Below are positions 23,025 to 24,445 of a stretch of DNA of 33,488 nt, piece after piece. Below the pieces are notes generated by a model. It was given only the letters and a program-made list of their open reading frames with translations. It was not told the origin of the DNA and did not search any database. The position numbers were made by a program, and so were the translations under genes. The stretch comes from a virus. Within the stretch, counting starts at the first letter, position 1, and every line of letters begins with the position of its first letter. Location of the stretch: the IMG/VR virus record IMGVR_UViG_3300034060_000058, positions 1 through 33,488 of that record; one strand, given 5' to 3'.

Positions 23025-23675
23025 CTACTTTTTTACAAAATGAAAACATCCACAAGCATAAGGTAAATCTAGCTCTGTAACATCAGTTATGAAAGGGCTT
23101 CTTCCATCATTAGGAATAATATAAAACTCGCAATCGTACTCGCTAAACAAATCACGAATATAAACAGGACTGTAAATGCGGTGTGCATTAAACGCAACAA
23201 CTGGCCTCCCAACAGGAACAACAAACAGCAGATGTTTAGATGCCATTCGCTTAAGGTTTGCAATTGCTTTGATATCGCCTTCATTGTCGAGTTCATCTCC
23301 ATATCTTCCTAGTCCTATATGCTCTACAACATGGCAGCAAGAAACGCTTTCTGCTATTGATAGTGAGTGTTTAGTTAAATCGTATTGCGCTACCATTAAA
23401 TTAGGAACGCTAATTTTTGGCGCTCTAAAGTCGTAAAAAGTTGTTGGTACTATAGCTGCTGCACAAGTAGATAAATGTAGGCTAGACCCAATATCTATAT
23501 GGTTTCTAGGGTTTATCTCTTTTATTTTTCTTAGCGCCCAGGCTACATGGTAAATGTAGTGTTGATCGTATCCATGACCAGAATCATCACCAAGACAAGG
23601 AAACGCAGATAGTTCAAATCTACTTTCATGCTGCATGAATTTAGTAGCTTGTTCTATGTATTCTTGTTCTGTCAT
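23025..23675 (-). CDS. DUF268-like (SAM methyltransferase-fold) protein
   Basis: 216 aa. HIDIGSS at 59-65 is a Rossmann motif I, and SCCHVVEHIGLGRYGDELD at about 112-130 is the hallmark of the DUF268 family, a class I methyltransferase-like group found mostly in polysaccharide and glycan gene clusters. The C-terminal half contains AFNAHRIYSP. A role in modifying sugars or glycans is likely but unproven. AGGA lies 5 nt before the ATG. It is separated from the gene upstream by 280 bp that contain the putative structured RNA. Confidence 0.8.
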   Translation of the reverse strand: MTEQEYIEQATKFMQHESRFELSAFPCLGDDSGHGYDQHYIYHVAWALRKIKEINPRNHIDIGSSLHLSTCAAAIVPTTFYDFRAPKISVPNLMVAQYDLTKHSLSIAESVSCCHVVEHIGLGRYGDELDNEGDIKAIANLKRMASKHLLFVVPVGRPVVAFNAHRIYSPVYIRDLFSEYDCEFYIIPNDGRSPFITDVTELDLPYACGCFHFVKK

Positions 23676-23725: not shown

Positions 23726-23940
23726 TTATTAAAGTCTTTAATAAGGTTACTGCTCTTTCGGTGAACGAACCTAGCCTACCTAGATTCGCCTTCATCTGCT
23801 CCATCGGAGTTACAGAACCCGACAGTCTTTCGTTGAATAGGCACTATCTTCGCCACCTATATTTGCGCTGTTTCATCAACTACCCCCAGTAACGCTGTAA
23901 TCGTAAGTCGCTGGTATGTCGTTAGAGCCTCCAACTTACG
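23726..23940 (-). ncRNA. Putative structured non-coding RNA or long 5' leader
   Basis: A 280-bp stretch without a convincing gene. Read on the minus strand it has consecutive hairpins: arms 940-934/908-902 (CGTAAGT with ACTTACG, 7 bp, extended by TGG/CCA); 860-837 (ATAGG with CCTAT plus two G-U pairs); 822-804 (TCGG with CCGA); 788-766 (CGAATCTAG with CTAGGTTCG, 9 bp including one G-U); and an AT-rich 8-bp hairpin at 744-726. The G-U pairs become A-C mismatches on the other strand, so the minus strand is favoured. The DUF268 gene starts 51 bp downstream. The longest peptide from an ATG is 29 aa. No known RNA family was recognised. Confidence 0.5.
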
Positions 23941-23955
23941 AATTAATACTATAAC

Positions 23956-24267
23956 CTAAAACTCAAACTCTTTGTAGTCGTATCTACCATTTTCTTTTTT
24001 ATACCATCCAATTACGATGATTCGCCAGCCAGACCTTACGATCTCTGTAAAGAAATCCGAATCTGCAATTTTCTTTATTCTGCTGGACATATTGCTTTTG
24101 GATGTAAGTTGAATACCTATCGTTTCTCCGTTGCCAATAGCCACGATGTCGAAAATGCCAAACAAATCTTTTTTTCGCTTGGTAAAGGCGTTGTAGCTTT
24201 CGACTACATCGCATTTATAGCCTTTAGACTCGTACAGAGCGATTGTGCGTACATTCTGACTAGCCAA
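23956..24267 (-). CDS. PD-(D/E)XK-like small nuclease
   Basis: 103 aa. The region KDLFGIFDIVAIGNGETIGIQLTSKSN (Asp40, Gln53 and Lys57) resembles compact PD-(D/E)XK or Hjc-like enzymes common in phages, with Gln in place of the usual Glu. A basic N-terminus and GWRI-type strand (IIVIGWYKK) support this. The only in-frame start is TTG at 24265-24267, which overlaps the repressor stop by 8 bp; it probably relies on coupled translation since no strong ribosome site is visible. Confidence 0.7.
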   Translation of the reverse strand: MASQNVRTIALYESKGYKCDVVESYNAFTKRKKDLFGIFDIVAIGNGETIGIQLTSKSNMSSRIKKIADSDFFTEIVRSGWRIIVIGWYKKENGRYDYKEFEF

Positions 24268-24445
24268 GATGTTCTGCCGTCAGTTTGCCATTTGAAGCCT
24301 CTATGATGGCGCTATGCCATTTCTTAGGGATTCCGTTACGCATCTTCCAGGCATAGGCCGTAACATACTTAACGCCAATCTTGTCGCATAAGTTCTTGAT
24401 TGAGCCAAACTCTGCCATTAGGTTGTCAAATGCTGTTTTTTCCAT
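24260..24445 (-). CDS. Cro/YdaS-like repressor
   Basis: 61 aa. A single helix-turn-helix: FGSIKNLCDKIGVKYVTAYAWKMRNGIP, followed by KKWHSAIIEASNGKLTAEHL, the pattern of Cro/YdaS-type regulators. AGGAGA precedes the ATG. It is the first gene leftwards from the divergent control region, and a TCTACATT half site overlaps its own putative -10, so it may repress itself and the plus-strand block. No partner CI-type repressor with a cleavage domain and no integrase was seen. Confidence 0.82.
   Translation of the reverse strand: MEKTAFDNLMAEFGSIKNLCDKIGVKYVTAYAWKMRNGIPKKWHSAIIEASNGKLTAEHLG

Follow-up and report, generated by a model that had tools for sequence, protein, structure and literature searches.

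Betaproteobacteria-1 (RF02932) is listed in Rfam as 'Gene; sRNA' with no known function. A literature search found no paper naming the family; a 2017 discovery paper is reportedly its source. The put RNA of HK022 is ~70 nt long, folds into two stem-loops and lies just downstream of the early promoters (PMC9378689). ROOL and GOLLD are ornate RNAs borne by phages, and their function is unassigned (PMC12286853).

The window analysed here is a stretch of viral DNA of 33,488 nucleotides, in which an earlier note had proposed a structured RNA of unknown family, read from the minus strand of a large non-coding gap and visibly richer in G+C than its flanks. The difference in composition was confirmed, with a G+C content of 0.45–0.49 at 23750–23949 versus 0.22 and 0.36 in the flanks. 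The structured RNA was also borne out, both by homology in Rfam and by covariation in homologues, but the family proved to be a known one. A cmscan search matched RF02932 at 23941–23817 on the minus strand over the full model (1–120) with 94.7 bits, the gathering cut-off being 49.4 bits, and RF02932 was the sole Rfam family to reach its cut-off in the whole window. Judged from sequence, the window RNA is with near certainty a member of Betaproteobacteria-1. A weak match to Rfam DdR13 on the plus strand was attributed to chance, and a tRNA search of the gap found none. The features of the locus are given below in the 5' to 3' direction of the minus strand; boundaries and pair counts are based on an alignment (A1) of 72 divergent sequences.

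24260–24445, minus: Cro-like HTH gene of the same operon, upstream of the RNA (PHROG 409/35, transcription regulators)
23956–24267, minus: gene without assigned function, upstream of the RNA
Between 23956–24267 and 23025–23675, both minus: inter-gene gap of 280 bases
23948–23953, minus: possible -10 box TATAGT, weak, directly upstream of P1
23748–23941, minus: whole conserved RNA, ~194 nt (5' end 23941, 3' end ~23748); in A1, conservation stops past R2
23901–23941, minus: P1 stem-loop, an Rfam stem (23941–23932 with 23910–23901); 9/10 pairs change on both sides
23887–23913, minus: pseudoknot PK1, P1 loop with the ACUGG segment (23913–23911 with 23889–23887)
23865–23895, minus: P2 stem-loop, an Rfam stem (23895–23891 with 23869–23865); 4/5 pairs change on both sides
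23832–23880, minus: pseudoknot PK2, P2 loop (23880–23876) with P4 loop (23836–23832)
23837–23860, minus: pseudoknot PK3 (23860–23855 with 23842–23837)
23848–23857, minus: GGUGGCGAAG core, identical in 72/72 sequences, partly through the way these were selected, as the core was in both search patterns
23821–23848, minus: P4 stem (23848–23843 with 23826–23821); 99.8% of cells paired, with changes on both sides
23796–23820, minus: repeat copy R1 (GGGUUCUGUAACUCCGAUGGAGCAG) in the P6 loop, after CUCC; variable core GAGCAG at 23796–23801
23795–23816, minus: P6 stem-loop, outside the Rfam model (23816–23813 with 23798–23795); 4/4 pairs change on both sides
23764–23790, minus: P7 hairpin, outside the Rfam model (23790–23780 with 23774–23764); helices 9–11, 81–99% of cells paired
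23750–23772, minus: repeat copy R2 (AGGUUCGUUCACCGAAAGAGCAG) in the tail after P7, after CACC; variable core GAGCAG at 23750–23755
23025–23675, minus: DUF268 protein gene, 216 aa, downstream of the RNA (Pfam PF03269, 51.3 bits)

Homologues were sought with two degenerate patterns built from the conserved core and run on viral contigs. One pattern gave 112 stretches and the other at least 120, together more than 190 relatives, nearly all from phages. When 16 divergent loci were checked against Rfam, all 16 scored above the cut-off (76–107 bits). The window RNA had no nucleotide match among 50,697 phage records, and the window DNA likewise had none in the phage records. A Paraburkholderia-type query had one match in the phage records, Acidovorax phage AP1 (OM049504.1, L178:7950-8155), in which the RNA is present but unannotated between the primase gene and the next gene. 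RF02932-type relatives occur in Paraburkholderia, Thauera and one Acidovorax phage. True copies in cellular genomes are few (Paraburkholderia, Thauera and a Burkholderiaceae MAG), and scores above the cut-off were found in 5 of 300 genomes in the order of a Paraburkholderia and in 4 of 398 in its phylum. Most of the 64 pattern matches on genome contigs were dismissed as chance pattern matches, as were L017, L060, L087 and L088. Exactly one copy of the RNA was present in 19 of 20 phage records. The exception, a single record of 44,384 bases, holds two equal-score copies 35.2 kb apart (L245 and L264) and is probably a concatemer of a ~35 kb phage. Another RNA-carrying phage contig contains a match to the Type II hammerhead ribozyme (L221:4325-4382, plus strand; 38.1 bits, cut-off 37).

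The three consensus stems of RF02932, namely P1, P2 and P4, are all formed in the window and covary in the 72 relatives. These stems are interlocked by three pseudoknots. PK1 shows CG/UA exchanges with 97–100% of cells paired, and in PK2 all five pairs change on both sides with 91% of cells paired. PK3 joins the strand before GGCGAAG to the strand after the 5' arm of P4; each of its three variable pairs shows changes in both partners, and 95% of cells are paired. The P1 region aligns poorly, with 62% of cells paired. Over the full structure 86.2% of cells are paired, versus 37–44% with slid partners and 71.2% with shuffled partners, and the covariation score is 0.413 versus 0.09–0.12 and 0.177, respectively. 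None of 500 shuffles reached any of the observed pairing or covariation values. A covariation scan that assumed no structure placed pairs of P1, P4, P6, PK1, PK2 and PK3 in the top ranks. The enlarged triple-pseudoknot structure is, on this covariation, hardly in doubt.

The structure forms as minus-strand RNA, because G-U pairs far exceed A-C pairs when counted on that strand (78:0 in PK3, 61:0 in P4, 30:3 in P6 and 154:27 in P7); the strand chosen in the earlier note from two stems is therefore upheld family-wide. Hairpins picked out there also proved to be family elements, 23902–23940 being P1, 23766–23788 being P7 and 23837–23860 coinciding exactly with PK3. The segment 23726–23747 is not conserved in the 72-sequence alignment, and the RNA ends near 23748. 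A coding test of the alignment found no conserved reading frame (22/72 open, versus 36% expected), and no peptide is conserved across the gap. The folding energy of the window sequence is unremarkable (z -0.8; 42 of 200 shuffles fold equally well), as expected since the RNA is pseudoknotted. The evidence for the window RNA comes from homologues and covariation.

The 3' third carries a duplicated element, R1 and R2. The two copies have a common sequence of 6–11 nt that differs from phage to phage and is matched within one molecule: the shared core is GAGCAG in the window and UCCAGCAUUG, AACGGGCAUGG, AAAGGUAUCAU or CAGCAGUUU in other RNAs. The longest run shared by R1 and R2 averages 6.5 nt within an RNA, versus 4.4 nt when the copies are swapped between phages in a set that includes close relatives. 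Column pairs of R1 and R2 that covary by taking the same letter (194–290, 160–265 and 177–288) rank with the strongest covariation signals of the molecule, and the best column pair is identical at a frequency of 0.85 versus 0.33 expected. A duplicated, co-varying element is very likely on these data. Simple copying between R1 and R2 is unlikely because the copies differ systematically (CUCC versus CACC), and the match would be kept by selection through a shared partner. Neither a complement of the core within the RNA or within 3 kb nor further copies in the same locus were found beyond chance, the cores being too short for either to be judged in whole phage genomes. The window and L014, L016, L179, L227, L236 and L273 have near-identical 3' modules (P6, P7 and R2) attached to 5' cores that clearly differ, a pattern suggestive of the 3' module being exchanged between phages as a unit.

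The RNA and the lytic operon nearly always share a strand. Most AT-rich freshwater phages, like the window, have the RNA shortly after a Cro-like HTH gene, where a long lytic operon begins and close behind a divergent block; GC-rich phages have it ~5 kb into the operon, downstream of ParB-like, helicase and primase genes. Among the 72 relatives the gene that comes next is variable (ParB-like, replication-initiation-like and small unknown genes), and the DUF268 gene is not a regular neighbour. In 33 of 72 loci P1 is preceded by a terminator-like hairpin and its U-tract, which end 10–20 nt ahead of it; terminators after the RNA were found in 13 of 72, near background. TAnnnT hexamers recur near the position of the window's TATAGT in AT-rich relatives. 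A scan for such hexamers upstream of P1 did not rise above shuffles and a promoter scan of the window called none there, and for these reasons a sigma-70 promoter belonging to the RNA was rejected.

At ~26 loci the terminator-like hairpin upstream of the RNA belongs to a further conserved unit, which is absent from the window. This unit consists of a small hairpin followed by a ~63–95 nt hairpin whose 3' side contains a 7-nt bulge, and ends 10–20 nt before P1 (examples are L180, L182, L193, L213, L215, L235 and L249). The bulge is complementary to the loop of the small hairpin, the complement averaging 6.9 nt within a locus versus 4.6 when swapped. An upstream -10 box lies at a fixed distance and at 18 of 25 loci agrees with TATAAT at five or all six positions. 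An Rfam search of one such locus gave no convincing match. The unit has the appearance of a separate small RNA that possesses a promoter and a terminator of its own, and it might regulate whether transcription continues into the Betaproteobacteria-1 RNA.

Chromosomal copies are found among metabolic genes (aldehyde dehydrogenase, GST and TetR), and some adjoin genes for SOS-type polymerases, named from sequence; the Thauera copies L139 and L140 are near UmuC-like and SRAP-like genes of SOS type, again so named only from sequence. At L139, L146 and L277 the next downstream gene is convergent, so these copies are not leaders, which speaks for an RNA capable of standing by itself rather than the leader of one gene. 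In Paraburkholderia, L290 (G002:C2) has neighbours encoding PLD-domain and caspase-domain proteins, a setting resembling a defence island. L285 and L286 (G002:C7 and G001:C8) are 5'-truncated at nearly the same point, TAG[CT]CTTGAGA, and one of them immediately follows a gene for a protein that resembles DnaE2 in sequence. The occurrence of several dispersed copies per Paraburkholderia genome suggests some means of spreading; Paraburkholderia sp. BL25I1N1 has copies both in a prophage and in the chromosome.

The best explanation overall, which we hold to be just probable, is an early, free-acting RNA that joins a conserved core to a duplicated phage-specific binding element. An RNA of ~194 nt would be made from the minus strand early in lytic growth, a timing that we predict with good confidence. 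Covariation shows that its 5' two thirds fold into a compact core, in which the three pseudoknots lock P1, P2 and P4 together; its 3' third comprises P6, P7 and the tail, the P6 loop holding R1 and the tail holding R2. The core would bind a conserved host component; R1 and R2 would bind one phage-specific partner, which could be a protein, RNA or DNA and would keep the two sites alike in sequence through selection. Action in trans is predicted with evenly balanced chances, and the outcomes could include a take-over of the host or control over the choice between lytic and lysogenic growth. The absence of a complement to the R1/R2 cores in the searches made in cis counts against the preferred reading. 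The RNA may also be no more than the leading portion of a long mRNA with a role in cis, because few terminators follow it, and the chromosomal copies, two of which are 5'-truncated, could be inactive remnants. More tentatively, the RNA could be a two-site specificity molecule whose knotted conserved core presents two copies of a fast-changing recognition sequence. R1 and R2 would then have to stay identical since one phage-specific partner reads both, each phage would have its own RNA 'key', and the module of P6, P7 and R2 would be exchangeable between phages.

The main rival is cis antitermination, in which the nascent RNA, by analogy with HK022 put, would bind RNA polymerase and carry the enzyme through the terminators of the lytic operon. 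The position of the RNA soon after the Cro-like gene in the window and most AT-rich phages is roughly that of putR or nutR, a varying downstream gene is expected of a general effect on transcription, and strong terminator-like hairpins are common in the region. However, the nearby terminators sit upstream of the RNA (33/72), beyond the help of a nascent transcript, and those downstream are at background. GC-rich phages, moreover, place the RNA behind the primase gene, ~5 kb from the start of the operon, chromosomal copies have convergent downstream genes and lack an operon to act on, and put, at ~70 nt and two stem-loops, has no pseudoknot core (PMC9378689). Processive antitermination is on balance unlikely. 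The same variability of the downstream gene bears on a leader or riboswitch for the gene directly downstream. The earlier note had left the choice between a free RNA and a leader of the DUF268 gene, and the RNA, which shares the strand of that gene, does end ~70 bases ahead of it, but no consistent same-strand downstream gene was found among the 72 relatives and chromosomal copies face convergent genes. The free RNA is favoured and the DUF268 leader has become very improbable.

A DNA element, for instance an origin of replication that folds as single-stranded DNA or that offers an initiator direct repeats, would fit the ParB-like, helicase and primase genes that are often near and the arrangement of R1 and R2 as direct repeats. 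It is at odds with the strong one-strand excess of G-U over A-C, the triple-pseudoknot covariation and the chromosomal copies away from replication genes, and we consider it quite unlikely. The GGUGGCGAAG core is also shared with 16S rRNA as an identical 10-mer at position 721–730, which could make the RNA a decoy that draws off ribosomal proteins. Local alignment scores against 16S and 23S rRNA are, however, mostly within those of dinucleotide shuffles; with only a 10-mer in common, mimicry of 16S or 23S rRNA was rejected, and such a decoy is extremely improbable. The enlarged structure provides the correct boundaries for biochemistry, and the phage setting gives a biological context, the early lytic region, once per phage. 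The R1/R2 element is a direct handle for identifying the partner; if it is a specificity tag, a phage RNA would here be equipped with a recognition code of its own, a strategy not recognised so far.

Neither the window nor any of 16 related loci matched the Rfam models of ROOL, GOLLD and OLE or that of the C4 antisense RNA of P1-like phages. Like ROOL and GOLLD, the window RNA is an elaborate RNA of phages and prophages with pseudoknots and no known job, but it is much shorter and shows no association with a tRNA island here. With HK022 put it shares, in some members, the character of a structured RNA near early phage promoters; it does not have the size and fold of put (~70 nt, two stem-loops), being ~194 nt with three pseudoknots and often placed after rather than before terminators. 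The closest system is RF02932, matched over the full length of its model with P1, P2 and P4 in identical places. The RNA here differs in extending ~75 nt further at the 3' end, Rfam covering only the 5' two thirds, in having three pseudoknots where the Rfam structure line has none, and in carrying the duplicated R1/R2 element. The family itself is already catalogued; the new points are its setting in phages, its true length, the fold with three pseudoknots and the duplicated element.
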